From positions 324,083-388,082 of the forward strand of contig PFDV01000005.1 in the NCBI GenBank assembly GCA_002772745.1: a DNA stretch of 64,000 bases, written 5' to 3'. The first letter of the stretch is position 1; each line of letters opens with the position of its first letter. The stretch is from Candidatus Peregrinibacteria bacterium CG10_big_fil_rev_8_21_14_0_10_55_24. Its GTDB lineage: Bacteria; Patescibacteriota; Gracilibacteria; Peribacterales; Peribacteraceae. The position numbers and the translations under genes were made by a program. Below, in pieces: positions 7,175 to 17,907 of this stretch. The notes beneath the pieces were generated by a model. It had not been told where the DNA came from and searched no databases. It saw only the letters and a list, made by a program, of their open reading frames with translations.

Positions 7175-8831
<1,657 letters not shown>

Positions 8832-8883
8832 GGCGTCAGATGGGGAAACGGGAAAACGGGTGCGCAGGGTGCGCGGAGCGCAC

Positions 8884-8961
8884 ACAGGGAAAACGCTGCA
8901 GTGGGAAGCACAAAAAGGCTGGCGCCGCATAGCGCGGCGCGATCTTTGTTCCGATTGGCTG
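8884..8961 (-). repeat. Inverted repeat A, right copy
   Basis: This is the partner of 7392-7469, covering the region just upstream of the recombinase start. Its last six bases overlap the 113-bp repeat at 8956-9068 through the shared CAGCCA/TGGCTG junction. Confidence 0.85.
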
Positions 8962-9429: not shown

Positions 9430-11214
9430 ATGCCCACTCTCCGTTGGATCGGCAAAGAGGCAGTCGTGAACCACCACCACACGGTACCGTTTCACCTACT
9501 CAAGGACGTACAAGAACTCTCCGTGGGCGATCCCGGCAGCGGAAACCTGATCGTAGAGGGCGATAACCTTCTCGCCCTTAAGGCTCTGCTTCCATATTAC
9601 GCAGGACAAGTGAAGTGTATTTACATTGATCCACCGTACAATACAGGGAATGAAGGCTGGGCATACAATGACAATGTAAATAGTCCCGTGATGAAGGAGT
9701 GGCTGGGACAAGTTGTCGGAAAGGAAGGAGAAACACTTGATAGACATGATCGCTGGCTATGCATGATGTATCCTCGTCTTGCACTACTACGAAAATTTTT
9801 ACGGGAAGACGGAGCGATCTTTGTAAGCATTGATGATAACGAGGTCCAAAATTTACGAGCTATAATGGACGACATCTACGGCAAAAAGAATTTTGTTGCA
9901 CAATTCGTTTGGAATACCGAAGGGCATACTGACAACCAGTTTCATATCAAAGTAAATCATGAGTATTTGGTAATGTACGCAACAAAAGAAACTACTCTGA
10001 AACTAGGATTTGTTGTTGATCCTAATACACGCGAGGGCAGCAACCTTTGGGCAGGTTATGCTGAAAACTCAATAACAAAGAATGGCCCCGGCAACCCCGC
10101 AAGTGAAATCACTCTACCGATCGGGTTCCCTACTGAAACTGAAGAATTGCAGTTGCCAGAAACGAACGTGCCAGCAGGTTTAATTGAAGCAATGAACGAG
10201 AAGCGACACACCAGTAACCAACTCAAGGCACAATTCGGTCGCGTGCAATTCCCGCTGAGATTTGATTCAATGGAAGCAAGAAACAAACATCTGATAAATA
10301 AGTGCCGTGTTTATTCGGGTTGGGCAAACGCAAACAAATTACGTAACTTTATTGATGCTGGCTGCGTTCCAATTGCAGATGACGATGGTATGCAGATTCG
10401 ATTCTTCATTAGTAGCAAAGGTGTAATTTACTATCGTAAAGACCGTGGAGATCAAGCGCGAAATATACTCTCGGTTCTTCGGAATCTTGGGACAACCGAA
10501 AAAATGCGTGCCGAGTTGGAAAGCATGGGAATTAAATTTCAATACCCAAAGCCAAAGGAACTATTGAGGCATATTGTTCGAGTCGGATCTGACGAAGGAG
10601 ATCTTGTCATGGACTCGTTTGCAGGTAGTGGAACTACTGCACATGCAGCTATCGAACTGAATTCTTCAAGTAAAATCCAGCGTCGTTTTATACTTATTCA
10701 GATGCCATGGGAAAATGACGAACAGCGTACAAAAGATAAGAATCTTACTCGGGACATCACTGCTGAACGCATTAAACGAGTTGCACAAGGCTACACAAAC
10801 TTAAAGGGTGAAGTAGTAGCAGGACTGGGTGGCGGCTTCCGCTATTGTCGCCTCTCTGAACCGCTCTTCGATGAAAAGGGAAAGATACGAGAGTCTGTGA
10901 AGTTTGCGGAACTTGCGCGGCATGTGTACTTCACGGAGACGGGTGAGCCGCTGCCAAAGGAGCGCGTTCCGAATACACCGCTCATTGGTATACATCACGG
11001 CGTGGGAGTGTACCTCCTGTATAACGGTATTCTGAAGGACAAGACAACAAATGGCGGCAACGTCCTCACGTCCAAAGTTCTCGTGGAATTGCCGGAACAC
11101 GAAGGACCGAAAGTTGTGTACGGTACGGCGTGCAGGCTGGGGGCTGCGCGGCTACGCAGAGAAGGTATCGTCTTCAAGCAGCTTCCGTATAGACTTCGCA
11201 TTGACGCACCATGA
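9430..11214 (+). CDS. Type III restriction-modification system methyltransferase (Mod), adenine-specific
   Basis: 594 residues, usual for a type III Mod subunit. It transfers a methyl group from S-adenosylmethionine to adenine in the recognition site and supplies site recognition to Res. Catalytic motif IV DPPY is at residues 67-70 and the SAM-binding motif FAGSGTT at about 397-403; that order is the beta-class arrangement of type III Mods. The middle part (about 150-390) should hold the target-recognition domain. It ends in an ATGA overlap with res, indicating translational coupling. Codon use in the middle is more AT-rich than in neighbouring housekeeping genes, in line with transfer. Confidence 0.93.
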   Translation: MPTLRWIGKEAVVNHHHTVPFHLLKDVQELSVGDPGSGNLIVEGDNLLALKALLPYYAGQVKCIYIDPPYNTGNEGWAYNDNVNSPVMKEWLGQVVGKEGETLDRHDRWLCMMYPRLALLRKFLREDGAIFVSIDDNEVQNLRAIMDDIYGKKNFVAQFVWNTEGHTDNQFHIKVNHEYLVMYATKETTLKLGFVVDPNTREGSNLWAGYAENSITKNGPGNPASEITLPIGFPTETEELQLPETNVPAGLIEAMNEKRHTSNQLKAQFGRVQFPLRFDSMEARNKHLINKCRVYSGWANANKLRNFIDAGCVPIADDDGMQIRFFISSKGVIYYRKDRGDQARNILSVLRNLGTTEKMRAELESMGIKFQYPKPKELLRHIVRVGSDEGDLVMDSFAGSGTTAHAAIELNSSSKIQRRFILIQMPWENDEQRTKDKNLTRDITAERIKRVAQGYTNLKGEVVAGLGGGFRYCRLSEPLFDEKGKIRESVKFAELARHVYFTETGEPLPKERVPNTPLIGIHHGVGVYLLYNGILKDKTTNGGNVLTSKVLVELPEHEGPKVVYGTACRLGAARLRREGIVFKQLPYRLRIDAP

Positions 11215-13787
11215 TTCTTAAAGACTACCAATCACAGGCTCTCAACTGGCTGGAAAAATATTTTCGCAATTGTCGCGCATGCAAAAATCCGCGTCAGGCG
11301 TACGAGGAAACGACACAGGAGTGGAAAGGCATGCGACTGAACTATGCGCCACTCAGCACACTCCCTGAAACGCCGTACGTTTGTCTGCGCATTCCCACGG
11401 GAGGCGGCAAGACACTCATCAGCGGACTTGCCATCGAACGGGCAAACAGAAGCCTCCTCTTCACGCGTCACAGCCTCACTTTGTGGCTTGTGCCGAGTGA
11501 GCCGATCCGTGAACAGACGCTTCGAATGTTACGGGAGCCGGGGGAGCTCCTGCACCAGTCGGTATTCTCCGCACTCGGAGAGGTGGAAGTGATGGACATT
11601 GACGAAGCTCTACGCATGAAATCGCATGTTCTCGCCGGAGCAAGCGTCATCATCGTTTCCACGATGCAGAGTTTTAAGCAGGCTGAGACGGATAGGCTCA
11701 CTGTCTACAAGCAGAACACGGATATGCAGGAGCATTTCGAGGGTATCACTGATGCCGCAGTTATTGGGAATCAATCGCTCGTCGACGCATTGCGGCTTAG
11801 GCATCCATTTATCATCGTTGATGAGGCACATAATCAGGGCACACAGCTCGCGTTCGACACCCTTGCTCGGCTGGAACCCAGTGCCATTTTAGAACTCACA
11901 GCCACACCTGATCGAAAGCTACAGCCGAGTAATGTGCTCTTCAGTGTCTCTGCGGCATCGCTCCATGCCGAGGACATGATCAAGATGCCGCTGGAGGTTG
12001 TGCGGCGCGAAAGCTGGAAAGACACGCTGCGCGACAGTATCGCTTGCCTCAACATGCTGCAGCAGAAGGCGAACGCGGAGCAGGACGCAACGGGCGAATA
12101 CATGCGCCCTATCATGCTCCTGCAGGCAGAGCGCAAGGACAGTGAACACGAGACGCTCGTTCCCGAAACTGTGAAGCGCTCACTCATAGAAGATTTCGGC
12201 GTACCGGAAAAGGAGATCGCCATTGCCACGGGCGTACAGGACGATCTCTCCGATCACGGGAATATCCTCGCGCCGGAGTGTCCGGTGCGGTTCATCATTA
12301 CCGTGGATAAGCTGCGCGAGGGGTGGGACTGCCCGTTTGCCTACGTGCTCTGCTCATTCCGCAATACGACGTCCTCGACTGCAGCGGAGCAAATCCTCGG
12401 GCGCATTCTCCGCATGCCACACGCGCAGAGAAAGACGCAGCAGGAACTCAACGAAGCCTACGCCTTTGTAACTTCCACGAACTTCGTGGCTACCGTGGAG
12501 AGTCTGCGCGACGGCCTCGTCCGTAGCGGCTTCGAGCGGCAAGAAACGAATGAGCTTCTCCATGCAGTGGATGCAGGAGACGAGCGAACGCTCTTTAATG
12601 CCGCGCCCTCCGTCACCTACGAATCACCGGAGCTTCCGCCGCCGGATGTGCTTGCGGGAAACCTCTCGGAACACGTAGAAATCACGCCCGAAGAATTCAA
12701 AGTGACACTCAAGGGGGACTTCAGTCCAACACTTGCAACCAGACTCGAAAACGCGTTTACGACAAGCGAAGGCAAGGAGGCCGCACGCAAGGCTCTCGCA
12801 CGGCTGCGAGGCGAGCATCCTGTGCCGACGAAATCGCCTGCAGAGCGTGGAGAATCGTTCAGCGTTCCATTGCTCGCGATTAAACAAGGCAGCATTTTCG
12901 AGCCCTTTGAAGAAACGCATCTTCTGGAGGGTGAGTGGCGACTCCTCGATTATTCCCTTGAGCTTAGCGATGCGGAATTCCCGAAGCCCGCCATTCGTGC
13001 ACAGGGCGGGCGCATCGTGCTCAAAGATGAACATGTGCGCTTCGAACACATTGAACAGATCGAACATCAACTTGCAATGTTCGACTATCAGAGCGACCAC
13101 GATCAGCTCTGGCTCGTGAGCTGGCTGGAGCGCAATCTCTACGATGAAAGCATCATCCCCGATGAAAAAGCGGCGTTCCTCAATGGCGCCGTCACTGCTC
13201 TCATTGGCAAACGCGGACTTACGATCGAGGAACTTCTGTATGCCAAGTTTCGTCTGCGGGAAGCGTTAGAACGTAAGATGCAGGATGCGAAGCAGGAGGC
13301 GATGAAGAATGTCTACCAGACACTCATGGTAGTCGAGAATAATTTTTCCGTTCGTAGCGACGTTGGAATGGTGTTCCAGAACGGGCGCTATGCTTACGAC
13401 TCCATTTATAGCGGTTCTATCGAATTACCAAAGCACTTCTTCCCGCAGATCGGAAACCTTCACGAAAAAGGAGAAGAGTTCGAATGCGCCCACTTCATTG
13501 CTACAGAGCTCCCGGGGGTCCAGTACTGGATACGAAACGTGGAGAGGAAGCCCACATCATTTTCTCTGCAAACTTCTACCGACCGCTTCTATCCCGATTT
13601 TCTCGTGAAGCTTACTGATGGACGCGTCCTTGCTGTCGAGTACAAGGGTGAAAACATTTGGGATACTCCCGACAGCATCGAGAAACGCCAGCTCGGGGAA
13701 CTGTGGGAGAAAAGAAGTAATGGGCAGTGCTTGTTTGTGATGACGAAGGGGAGAGGGTGGGAAACTATCAAACAAAAAACCGGATAA
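11211..13787 (+). CDS. Type III restriction enzyme, Res subunit (helicase-nuclease)
   Basis: 858 residues. ATP-dependent translocase/nuclease that cleaves unmodified DNA together with Mod. An SF2 helicase core is visible: Walker A PTGGGKT (residues 62-68), DEAH (204-207), and a late helicase motif around REGWDCPFA. The C-terminal PD-(D/E)XK nuclease is visible as YPDF...VEYKG (about 794-813). All key residues seem intact, so the system may be active. The start overlaps the mod stop by 4 nt. The stop codon abuts, with no gap, the stop codon of the convergent reverse transcriptase gene. Confidence 0.93.
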   Translation: MILKDYQSQALNWLEKYFRNCRACKNPRQAYEETTQEWKGMRLNYAPLSTLPETPYVCLRIPTGGGKTLISGLAIERANRSLLFTRHSLTLWLVPSEPIREQTLRMLREPGELLHQSVFSALGEVEVMDIDEALRMKSHVLAGASVIIVSTMQSFKQAETDRLTVYKQNTDMQEHFEGITDAAVIGNQSLVDALRLRHPFIIVDEAHNQGTQLAFDTLARLEPSAILELTATPDRKLQPSNVLFSVSAASLHAEDMIKMPLEVVRRESWKDTLRDSIACLNMLQQKANAEQDATGEYMRPIMLLQAERKDSEHETLVPETVKRSLIEDFGVPEKEIAIATGVQDDLSDHGNILAPECPVRFIITVDKLREGWDCPFAYVLCSFRNTTSSTAAEQILGRILRMPHAQRKTQQELNEAYAFVTSTNFVATVESLRDGLVRSGFERQETNELLHAVDAGDERTLFNAAPSVTYESPELPPPDVLAGNLSEHVEITPEEFKVTLKGDFSPTLATRLENAFTTSEGKEAARKALARLRGEHPVPTKSPAERGESFSVPLLAIKQGSIFEPFEETHLLEGEWRLLDYSLELSDAEFPKPAIRAQGGRIVLKDEHVRFEHIEQIEHQLAMFDYQSDHDQLWLVSWLERNLYDESIIPDEKAAFLNGAVTALIGKRGLTIEELLYAKFRLREALERKMQDAKQEAMKNVYQTLMVVENNFSVRSDVGMVFQNGRYAYDSIYSGSIELPKHFFPQIGNLHEKGEEFECAHFIATELPGVQYWIRNVERKPTSFSLQTSTDRFYPDFLVKLTDGRVLAVEYKGENIWDTPDSIEKRQLGELWEKRSNGQCLFVMTKGRGWETIKQKTG

Positions 13788-15194
13788 TTAAAGTTGGTCG
13801 TGATCGATGATGAGGACAATACGCGGAACAACATACGGCCAGACTCTGTGTGCAGGTAAGTTGTCCATTGGATCCCTCATTGTTCTGATAAAAGGGCACA
13901 TTTCCAGCATATTACGTCCTGCAATGCGATTTATGCCATGACACGCTGACGCAAGGTAACGTCCCATACGAGAAGCATGTTTCTGCGCTTCGTGTCGTTT
14001 CACAATACAGCTAATACGTGCAGGCAGCATCCACTCGGAATATCCGCCCAGTTTTTCATAGAGCATCTTCCGAGCTTTTTTTAGAGTTTCAATGTCCTTC
14101 GGACGCATTGGCTTTCCGGCACGCATACGATTGGCAACGCTAAGAAACATACGAAAAACTAAGCCAAGTCTCTCAATCCATTCTGAAATTTTAGTGTCCT
14201 CAACATGCACTTTTCCTAAAGTGTGTCTGTATCCCAAAAAATCCATGTCGTCATCGGGTCTATGGGATTTAACTTTCTTCTCTTTGAAAACGAGACCAAC
14301 AGCTTTCAGATCACTTTCTGCGCGTTTGCGTTCCGTTAAGAGTCGATCTTCCGATGTACATACTATTGCCAGATCATCTGCATACCGTAGAAGCTCTACA
14401 CCAAGTTTCTTACGTATTTCGTCAAAATTATAGAGATACAGGTTTGCGACGAGTGGTGACAAGCATGAGCCTTGAGGTATTCCAATTTTAGGGTTGTGTC
14501 CTTCTGGTAGTGCAGCAGGATTGTCGAAACTTACTTGAATCCAGCTTTCAAAAAATGGCTGCAATGAATCATCGGGCAGGTGCTTCTTTAACAATGCCAG
14601 GGCTTCTTGTCGCCTCAGCGAATCAAAAAAGGAAGCTATGTCTGCCTTTAAAATCCACCATCGTTTCTCCCTCATGAATCTTGCCAGTCGGATATGAGCA
14701 TCCAGTACACCCGGCGCTCTTTGTTTCCTGTTCAACGTTGGGATACCACAGTAGCTCACTCCGTTATCCAGTTGCTCTCGCAGAATCTCCCTGACAACAA
14801 TGTACACAGCGCGTTCGATTATTTTGTCTTCAAGATACTTGTGTACCATAAGTGGTCGCTTTCCACCGTCTGGTTTCTTCAAGAGAACTACATGAAGAGG
14901 GTGGCAATTATGCGTGCCTTCTTTAAGAGCCGATCGCAAGTGTCCAACATAGCTGCGTAGATTGTTGCGGAAGCTGGGAATTTCCCGGAGTGGTAGTGAT
15001 GACTCTTGCGCGCGGGCTTCCGCAGCCTGACGTAATAACTTGTGTTTGCTGAAACGAACATGGCCTCTTTTGCGTTCTTTACGCAGCAGATCACAAAGCA
15101 CCTCATCACCTGCTCTTGCGAGCGTATCTATAGCCATTGTTTTTTCAAGAAGATTCTTCATGTGCATTGGTGCCCTTCCCTGAAGCAAGCCCAT
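13788..15194 (-). CDS. Stand-alone reverse transcriptase (group II intron-like RT domain)
   Basis: RNA-dependent DNA polymerase domain of 468 residues with intact active-site motifs: RPLMVHKYLEDKIIERA (about 114-130), KADIASFFDSL (183-193, catalytic Asp185), GIPQGSCLSP (238-247) and YADD (271-274, Asp273/274), then DFLGYR (318-323). A basic thumb-like region follows, but no HNH endonuclease is seen. It lies beside a type III R-M system and convergent with it. No domain V/VI intron RNA is recognised and the 3' end touches res, so it does not look like an intron-borne maturase. A defence-associated RT is possible (inference). Start is uncertain: ATGs at 15167 and 15161 are also plausible. Confidence 0.85.
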   Translation of the reverse strand: MGLLQGRAPMHMKNLLEKTMAIDTLARAGDEVLCDLLRKERKRGHVRFSKHKLLRQAAEARAQESSLPLREIPSFRNNLRSYVGHLRSALKEGTHNCHPLHVVLLKKPDGGKRPLMVHKYLEDKIIERAVYIVVREILREQLDNGVSYCGIPTLNRKQRAPGVLDAHIRLARFMREKRWWILKADIASFFDSLRRQEALALLKKHLPDDSLQPFFESWIQVSFDNPAALPEGHNPKIGIPQGSCLSPLVANLYLYNFDEIRKKLGVELLRYADDLAIVCTSEDRLLTERKRAESDLKAVGLVFKEKKVKSHRPDDDMDFLGYRHTLGKVHVEDTKISEWIERLGLVFRMFLSVANRMRAGKPMRPKDIETLKKARKMLYEKLGGYSEWMLPARISCIVKRHEAQKHASRMGRYLASACHGINRIAGRNMLEMCPFIRTMRDPMDNLPAHRVWPYVVPRIVLIIDHDQL

Positions 15195-15925: not shown

Positions 15926-16384
15926 TTAGCGTTCCCTTTGTTTGACCTTGTAACGCCTGCGTTTGCGCAGCTCCTGTTGCGGAGGTTGTTGCTCCTCCTG
16001 GGTTTGGCAGTGAGCACAGCGGGTGGCGTAGGGTATTACCTCTAGCCGTCCGATGGGAATTTCTTCGTCGCAGTCATCACATACGCCATACGTTCCTTCG
16101 GCGATTTTTTCCCGTGCGAGTGCCGCCTGCTCAGCTATGGTCCCCTCTGTCTCTGCTTCCTCGATACGTACGGACATCTGCGACTCATCGGATCTTCCAC
16201 CATCCAAATCCGTATCGTAGTTCCGTGTATCGAGTGATGAGAGTGCGCCCTCCATCGCCTGACGTGCGAACCTTCCAATCCCATGGATACTCGCAGCGAT
16301 ACGCGAGAGGGATTCGTGTCGATTGAGCGCAATACGTCGGCCCACTGCCAGGGGGATGAACGGTATCTCTGTGTGCTTCGTCAT
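15926..16384 (-). CDS. DksA/TraR-family zinc-finger protein
   Basis: 152 residues. The C-terminal half carries the family C4 zinc finger (CDDC...CAHC) with the EEIP-x-RL-x-x-P pattern typical of DksA/TraR proteins, which bind RNA polymerase through its secondary channel and modulate initiation. The N-terminal part is helical and acidic (DESQMSVRIEEAETEG), as expected for the coiled-coil finger. The C-terminus ends in a Gln- and Arg-rich tail. The first ~40 residues align poorly with the family, so an ATG near residue 44 (MEGALSS) is an alternative start. It faces away from rplU. Confidence 0.85.
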   Translation of the reverse strand: MTKHTEIPFIPLAVGRRIALNRHESLSRIAASIHGIGRFARQAMEGALSSLDTRNYDTDLDGGRSDESQMSVRIEEAETEGTIAEQAALAREKIAEGTYGVCDDCDEEIPIGRLEVIPYATRCAHCQTQEEQQPPQQELRKRRRYKVKQRER

Positions 16385-16839: not shown

Positions 16840-17907
16840 CTACTGGGCGTTTCTCAGCTGCTGCATAGATTGGAGGGTAACTCCCAAGTTCTGCATCTGC
16901 GCGATGGTTTCGCCAAGCCGTTCGTTCGCCCGTAGGAGGTGGTGCAGGTAACTCCTGGTGTGCTGACGGCTCAAGTGCGAAGGGGACTCAGGGTCGATGG
17001 GGGAGTGATCCTCTTTGAATTGTGCATTCGTGATGCGGATCTGTGAGCGATTCGAGAGCAGAATGGTTCCGTGGCGTGCAATGCGCATGGGCATGACGGA
17101 GTCGAACATGTCGATGCCGCGCTCGACACAGGCGCGGATCTGCTCCACGTCGCCCACACCCATCAGATAGCGAGGTTTGTCTTTTGGGAGGAGTGGTGCC
17201 ACCGCCTCGACAACGCTGAGCATTTGTTCTTCATTTTCCCCGACAGCCAGCCCTCCGATGGCGTACCCGTCGAAGCCGATGGCTTGGAGTTCCTGTGCGC
17301 ACTTCTCCCTTAGGTCGCGCTCCAGTCCGCCCTGCACGATGCCGAAGAGGAGGGGATTCTTCCCCGTTTGTTGTTTGTATGCATCGTTGATTTTCCTGCA
17401 CTCCTTTGCCCATCTCAGCGTTCGATCCACTGCCTTCTCGATCGATGTGCGCTTCGCAGTCGATGGAGGACATTCGTCAAAAACCATGATGATGTCTGCT
17501 CCCAGCATGTGCTGAATGTGCATGGATTCCTTCGGTCCGATGAAGTGCGCGTCCCCGTTGAGGTGTGACCGAAAGTGCACGCCTTCTTCTGTCACGTTCG
17601 TAGCGCCTCTCTTCCCAAAAGAGAACACCTGGTACCCACCGGAGTCCGTGAGGATTGGCTTCTCCCAGCCGATGAAGGTATGCAGACCCCCTGCGCGTTC
17701 TACGGTGTCTTCCCCCGGTTGCAGGTGCAGGTGGTACGTGTTGCAGAGCAGAATTTGTGCGTTGAGTTCCAGGAGATCTCTCTGCGTGATGCCTTTCATT
17801 GCTCCAGCAGTTGCCACTGGCATGAAGAAAGGAGTCTTCACGGTGCCGTGCTCCGTTTTGAGAATTCCGTGCCGGGCATGGGGGAGAGAAGCGACAAGTG
17901 TGAACAT
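16840..17907 (-). CDS. tgt: Queuine/preQ1 tRNA-ribosyltransferase without the zinc site
   Basis: 355 residues. Exchanges guanine-34 for a 7-deazaguanine (preQ1 or queuine) in GUN-anticodon tRNAs. The fold is well conserved: PFFMPVATAG, the general acid region LTDSGGYQVFS, the base-binding GIVQGG and GGLAVGE, and the nucleophile region DMFDSVMPMRIARHGT. The C-terminal zinc site normally reads DP-x-C-x-C-x-x-C with a later His. Here the three Cys are Ser308, Ser310 and Ser313 and the His is Gln339, at identical spacing, so all four ligands are replaced. It may be a zinc-free enzyme. No queuosine synthesis genes are seen in the window. Confidence 0.93.
   Translation of the reverse strand: MFTLVASLPHARHGILKTEHGTVKTPFFMPVATAGAMKGITQRDLLELNAQILLCNTYHLHLQPGEDTVERAGGLHTFIGWEKPILTDSGGYQVFSFGKRGATNVTEEGVHFRSHLNGDAHFIGPKESMHIQHMLGADIIMVFDECPPSTAKRTSIEKAVDRTLRWAKECRKINDAYKQQTGKNPLLFGIVQGGLERDLREKCAQELQAIGFDGYAIGGLAVGENEEQMLSVVEAVAPLLPKDKPRYLMGVGDVEQIRACVERGIDMFDSVMPMRIARHGTILLSNRSQIRITNAQFKEDHSPIDPESPSHLSRQHTRSYLHHLLRANERLGETIAQMQNLGVTLQSMQQLRNAQ

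Follow-up and report, generated by a model that had tools for sequence, protein, structure and literature searches.

Queuosine synthesis has been linked to metal homeostasis, and tRNA-guanine transglycosylase (TGT) is regarded as a zinc metalloenzyme (PMC9508795). That paper states that TGT requires zinc for activity, citing Chong et al. 1995 on the E. coli enzyme. Such a requirement concerns an enzyme built around zinc, and mutants of its ligands need not predict the behavior of one that evolved without the metal. In S. meliloti strain 1021, genetic evidence indicates that tgt is needed for queuosine-dependent phenotypes, and that preQ1 rescues queC and queF mutants but not tgt mutants (PMC3568095). 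The base pocket distinguishes preQ1-type enzymes, with GGLAVG, from queuine-type enzymes, with GG[LS][AS]G, and Bartonella henselae, which carries tgt and QPTR without QueA or QueG/QueH and has the GGLAVG pocket, prefers preQ1 (PMC11570991). Zinc ligands have repeatedly been lost from other conserved proteins, as in the zinc-free (C-) forms of the ribosomal proteins L31, L36 and S4 (PMC5912738, PMC3087516). In the literature that we searched, the coverage of which is incomplete, we found no paper remarking on the loss of zinc ligands from TGT, and the precedents in well-studied bacteria described below appear to have gone unremarked there.

The window analyzed here, a stretch of 64,000 nucleotides from a genome of the Peribacteraceae (Patescibacteria), contains a complete tgt open reading frame of 355 codons, with an ATG start and no internal stop (Table 1). 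The first-pass annotation of this DNA had named no strand for the gene, which lies on the minus strand. A profile search matched the product to PF01702 with 449.3 bits and to TIGR00430 with 448.8 bits (cut-off 306.75) over residues 3–354, and ruled out both the archaeosine enzyme TgtA (TIGR00432, 132.9 bits against a cut-off of 350) and DpdA (NF041059, 37.7 bits against 200). Its nearest named relatives belong to Candidatus Peribacteraceae (76% identity) and Candidatus Peribacteria (72%), and the closest solved structures are those of Z. mobilis (Zm) TGT, at about 45% identity. The catalytic and base-recognition residues are kept, namely D88 (Zm D102), D144 (D156), Q192 (Q203) and D269 (D280), in agreement with the initial statement that the catalytic Asp residues are retained. 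This is therefore a known type of enzyme, and its zinc-less form, rather than a new kind of enzyme, is what is new.

Table 1. Features of the window discussed in the text (position 1 is the first nucleotide of the window)
Feature	Position	Strand	Basis or remark
tgt, zinc-less tRNA-guanine(34) transglycosylase	16840..17907	-	PF01702, TIGR00430 matches; single copy
Asp88, general acid/base (Zm Asp102)	17644..17646	-	alignment
GGLAVGE base-pocket motif, residues 218-224, preQ1-type	17236..17256	-	sequence; PMC11570991
Gln256 codon	17140..17142	-	family-specific
Asp269, catalytic nucleophile (Zm Asp280)	17101..17103	-	alignment
Met274 codon (Thr of PTR motif)	17086..17088	-	
Former zinc-binding C-terminal subdomain, residues 300-354	16846..17010	-	alignment, AlphaFold model
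Ser308 codon (Zm Cys318)	16984..16986	-	invariant Ser 48/48; all four TCN codons occur
Ser310 codon (Zm Cys320)	16978..16980	-	S 41, A 5, V 2 of 48
Ser313 codon (Zm Cys323)	16969..16971	-	S 41, G 7 of 48
His316 codon (Zm Trp326)	16960..16962	-	family-specific
Arg330 codon, candidate member of replacement polar network	16918..16920	-	invariant in Peribacteraceae, variable and mostly hydrophobic elsewhere
Gln339 codon (Zm His349)	16891..16893	-	invariant 48/48; CAG and CAA both occur
Large serine recombinase	7221..8930	-	
tRNA-Gln(TTG)	7323..7397	+	
Type III restriction-modification pair	9430..13787		
Stand-alone reverse transcriptase	13788..15194	-	RVT_1 80 bits, PADLOC generic RT 145 bits
DksA/TraR-type protein	15926..16384		four Cys, CDDC...CAHC

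The starting observation, that all four zinc ligands are replaced, was borne out by a phmmer alignment to the Z. mobilis TGT chains, in which C318, C320, C323 and H349 fall on S308, S310, S313 and Q339 with the same spacing and without a gap in the subdomain, so that SSSQ stands in place of the Cys3His site. An alternative alignment supplying Cys or His ligands from elsewhere had been named as a result that would refute it. The protein contains no Cys beyond residue 260, however, and realignment therefore cannot restore a Cys3His site. The genome encodes a single TGT, and the window enzyme is thus not a spare zinc-free paralog; a zinc-starvation (C-) form would require a second, zinc-binding copy beside it. 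General avoidance of zinc was likewise rejected, as the DksA/TraR-type protein encoded two genes from tgt keeps its four Cys and the recombinase keeps a Cys-rich zinc ribbon. Among the proteins examined, the ligand loss is specific to TGT.

Several other genes of the window deserve mention in their own right. The frame of the large serine recombinase covers a tRNA-Gln(TTG) gene encoded in the other direction and lies upstream of the restriction-modification and reverse transcriptase genes, an arrangement that suggests an integrated element. The reverse transcriptase directly follows the restriction-modification pair and is matched by several DRT/UG models more weakly than by the PADLOC generic model. 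A search of its surroundings for 40-bp direct repeats like those of diversity-generating elements found none.

The loss is fixed throughout the order. TGT is present in 64 of the 74 Peribacterales genomes, and the zinc region is assembled in 62 of these, the remaining two TGTs ending at contig ends. All 62 have Ser308 and Gln339, with S, A or V at position 310 and S or G at position 313 (SSGQ in L074 and SSSQ in L075, for example), which argues against a sequencing error or chance. Two tgt genes (L037 in genome G002 and L045 in G031) are split into two frames by a frameshift or an assembly error, and both retain the S...Q pattern in the zinc region. The question raised at the outset, whether the loss is lineage-wide in Patescibacteria, thus receives a mixed answer: it is so in Peribacterales, elsewhere in the phylum the losses are many and scattered, and losses also occur beyond Patescibacteria.

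Across 48 aligned distinct sequences, Ser308, Arg330, Ala336 and Gln339 are invariant while their codons drift, Ser308 being encoded by TCC, TCT, TCA and TCG, Arg330 by six codons and Ala336 by four. Arg330 and Gln339 differ from the residues that other families use at these positions; at position 330 those families are variable and mostly hydrophobic. Residues that stay fixed while their codons wander are not what drift would leave, and the pattern indicates that a new set of residues has been selected; to judge from these sequences, the replacement set is under purifying selection. Pairwise dN/dS is about 0.05–0.23 where dS is computable, the large dS values being near saturation, and the window TGT and its nearest relative (L031) are separated by a dN of 0.19 and a dS of 1.44. 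The entropy of residues 300–345 (1.00) does not exceed the value for the protein as a whole (1.06), indicating that the subdomain is not decaying. Other family-specific positions are Met274, which replaces the Thr of the PTR motif in 31 of 32 family members, Gln256 (32/32) and His316, which occupies the position of the Zm dimer residue Trp326. These changes may alter contacts with the tRNA or within the dimer.

An AlphaFold2 model built with 132 homologs has a mean pLDDT of 95.6 and a pTM of 0.93, with a pLDDT of about 98 over residues 291–350. It displays the (beta/alpha)8 TGT fold with the C-terminal subdomain, where helices span residues 311–315, 318–326 and 330–354, and Foldseek superposes it on Z. 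mobilis TGT with a TM score of 0.95 and a deviation of 1.5–1.6 Å over 354 columns. The model, which is silent on the presence of metal, indicates that a sequence without the ligands is compatible with the same subdomain. Judging from conservation, a polar network of Ser308, Ser310, Ser313, Arg330, Glu333, Thr334 and Gln339 probably takes the place of zinc.

The Peribacteraceae are one case of a recurrent pattern. We collected 236 TGTs, mostly from Patescibacteria with 20-odd from plasmid and phage records, and built a tree with the zinc region left out. The tree contains 16 maximal zinc-less clades, corresponding to at least 14 independent losses at a node support of at least 0.9, although this is an unevenly sampled convenience collection from which no loss rate should be read. 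Four ligands are kept in 159 sequences (one of them a CCCC enzyme), three in none, two in 5, one in 17 and none in 55, a bimodal distribution, as expected of ligands that count only in combination. Within the same class as Peribacterales, one relative (L025) has an intact CCCH site and several families show VHSH, ICSH, YTSH, AGSH, DNTN, NILQ or LDNH. Further losses occur in other Patescibacteria, and three Patescibacteria sequences (L175, L212 and L220) have odd gaps and a divergent subdomain in which the exact ligand alignment is uncertain. Outside the phylum, ligands are missing in Hyphomicrobiales (SCTN in S. meliloti, SCTS in Sinorhizobium, SCAN in Shinella and Methylobacterium), in Bacteroidales (GSDH in Phocaeicola and Bacteroides) and on a Tsukamurella plasmid (TN-H), while CCCH is kept in E. 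coli, Paenibacillus, Enterococcus, Paracoccus, Sphingomonas, Collinsella, Arthrobacter and other controls. The Cys3His site is therefore typical of TIGR00430-type TGTs without being universal, and the loss in Peribacteraceae is real, lineage-wide, ancient within the family and part of a recurrent pattern.

Three sequences of this collection are of separate interest. The Tsukamurella gene (L239, NZ_LR134445.1), which lacks the Cys ligands, is an extra plasmid-borne tgt, and so is a divergent gene that keeps CCCH on a Klebsiella IncC plasmid (L241, NZ_CP021956.1), flanked by rsmH and by rmtG, which encodes a 16S methyltransferase. In the Hydrogenedens TGT (L036, CACLTT010000004.1), Cys replaces the His ligand, and the resulting CCCC set is probably an alternative zinc site.

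Pathway genes were searched family by family across the Peribacterales genomes. QueA, which acts only on the product of TGT, is encoded in 22 of the 64 TGT-positive and in none of the 10 TGT-negative genomes (Fisher p = 0.028, uncorrected for phylogeny). Although these 22 genomes have QueA, neither QueG nor QueH was found in any of the 74 genomes searched. Queuosine synthesis should therefore stop at epoxyqueuosine, which would be the end product in the QueA-bearing relatives unless another, unrecognized reductase exists. True QueC occurs in 7 of the 74 genomes, weak matches (E > 1e-9) being taken as other PP-loop enzymes; QueC and QueA are both absent from the window's own genome. The QPTR/YhhQ family is found in 42 genomes, namely 40 of 64 with TGT versus 2 of 10 without it (p = 0.016, uncorrected for phylogeny), and has two members in the genome of the window.

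The proposal in the first-pass annotation that the enzyme may be zinc-independent gains support from the order-wide fixation, the purifying selection on the replacement residues and the modeled subdomain. It is further supported by TGTs that have lost three or four ligands and sit in the queuosine pathway, as the S. meliloti genetics (PMC3568095) indicate, or in genomes with QueA. In the sequence of S. meliloti strain Ak57, TGT has one of the four ligands left and intact catalytic residues, and its gene lies directly downstream of a QueA-like open reading frame, whose identity is suggested by its sequence and by the neighboring SMc01206/SMc01207 numbering in the same study. Across the whole zinc-less set the catalytic residues are invariant, and the pocket Cys is changed in only four members.

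We therefore consider it probable that the window TGT is a working, zinc-independent bacterial enzyme, most likely acting with preQ1 and fed by salvage, a reading in which we infer the absence of metal, the network, the activity and the substrate. In an ancestor of the Peribacteraceae, Cys3His would have given way to Ser/Ser/Ser/Gln along with the family-specific Arg330, Glu333, Thr334 and Ala336, and the former CxCxxC loop is now probably kept in place on the C-terminal helix by a network of hydrogen bonds or salt bridges, a task once performed by zinc. One of the two QPTR/YhhQ-family transporters would bring in the base, and the TIM barrel would exchange it, as a salvaged 7-deazaguanine that is most likely preQ1, for G34 of GUN-anticodon tRNAs by the normal double displacement, with Asp269 as the nucleophile and Asp88 as the acid/base. 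The pocket motif and the dimer residues are consistent with such an exchange of G34 for preQ1 by a homodimer. Given that QueA, QueG and QueH are absent, the product probably stays preQ1 in this species.

Another reading is that zinc loss accompanied a change of substrate, to queuine, another base, DNA or another RNA. The absence of QueA, QueG, QueH and QueC beside two QPTR genes matches the direct queuine salvage of Chlamydia, and the substitution of Met for the PTR Thr could be taken in the same sense. The pocket, however, is GGLAVGE and departs from the Chlamydia-type GG[LS][AS]G; preQ1 is also the preferred base in Bartonella, which shares this gene pattern and pocket (PMC11570991). The scores for DpdA and TgtA fall far below their cut-offs, and zinc loss is found in QueA-bearing genomes too. 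The initial suggestion of another substrate is thus not supported, given the intact base-binding and catalytic residues and the confinement of QueA to TGT-positive genomes (22/22), and we regard this reading as very unlikely.

That a metal is bound at a new site, made for instance of His301, His316 and His323, is also most unlikely. These residues are conserved (30, 29 and 29 of 32, respectively), with the first two largely confined to the family. No Cys is left in the subdomain, however, and the His pattern is missing from other zinc-less lineages. Furthermore, His323 corresponds to Zm His333 and His316 to Zm Trp326 in the aromatic cluster of the dimer interface (PMC5395182), and interface roles can explain their conservation. 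The ten genomes without TGT and the two frameshift-split genes (in G002 and G031) might point to a decaying or inactive remnant, but the invariant catalytic residues, the low dN/dS, the conserved replacement residues and the occurrence of QueA only together with TGT make this extremely improbable.

Returning to the zinc-independent enzyme, we think it fairly likely that zinc is generally dispensable in TGT, as at least 14 all-or-none losses suggest, that a Ser/Gln/Arg network substitutes for it in Peribacteraceae, and that "requires zinc" is true of some TGTs only. TGT can probably do without its structural zinc.

A whole order with a ligand-free sole TGT, together with the repeated losses, makes the role of zinc testable in natural variants rather than in crippled mutants, and one of the species concerned, S. 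meliloti, is genetically tractable. Our analysis also provides a well-sampled case of a structural metal replaced by ordinary side chains, and for annotators it means that loss of Cys3His in TGT should not be read as loss of function.

Compared with the Z. mobilis and E. coli enzymes, the window TGT shares the fold (with that of Z. mobilis), length, catalytic Asp pair and GGLAVGE motif, and conserves the dimer residues Tyr330 and His333 (Zm numbering). It differs in the four replaced ligands, in the family-specific Arg330, Ala336 and Gln339, and in having His316 where Zm has Trp326. The TGTs of Hyphomicrobiales (S. meliloti, Shinella and Methylobacterium) have likewise lost ligands and kept the catalytic residues; their loss is independent, removed three of the four ligands (SCTN or SCAN) while sparing the second Cys, and brought in other replacement residues, and in S. 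meliloti a probable queA adjoins tgt. The C- forms of L31, L36 and S4 are in many cases additional copies switched on under zinc starvation, whereas the window TGT is the sole copy. Finally, the TGT/QPTR salvage of B. henselae offers the same gene pattern and pocket in a different phylum and lifestyle.
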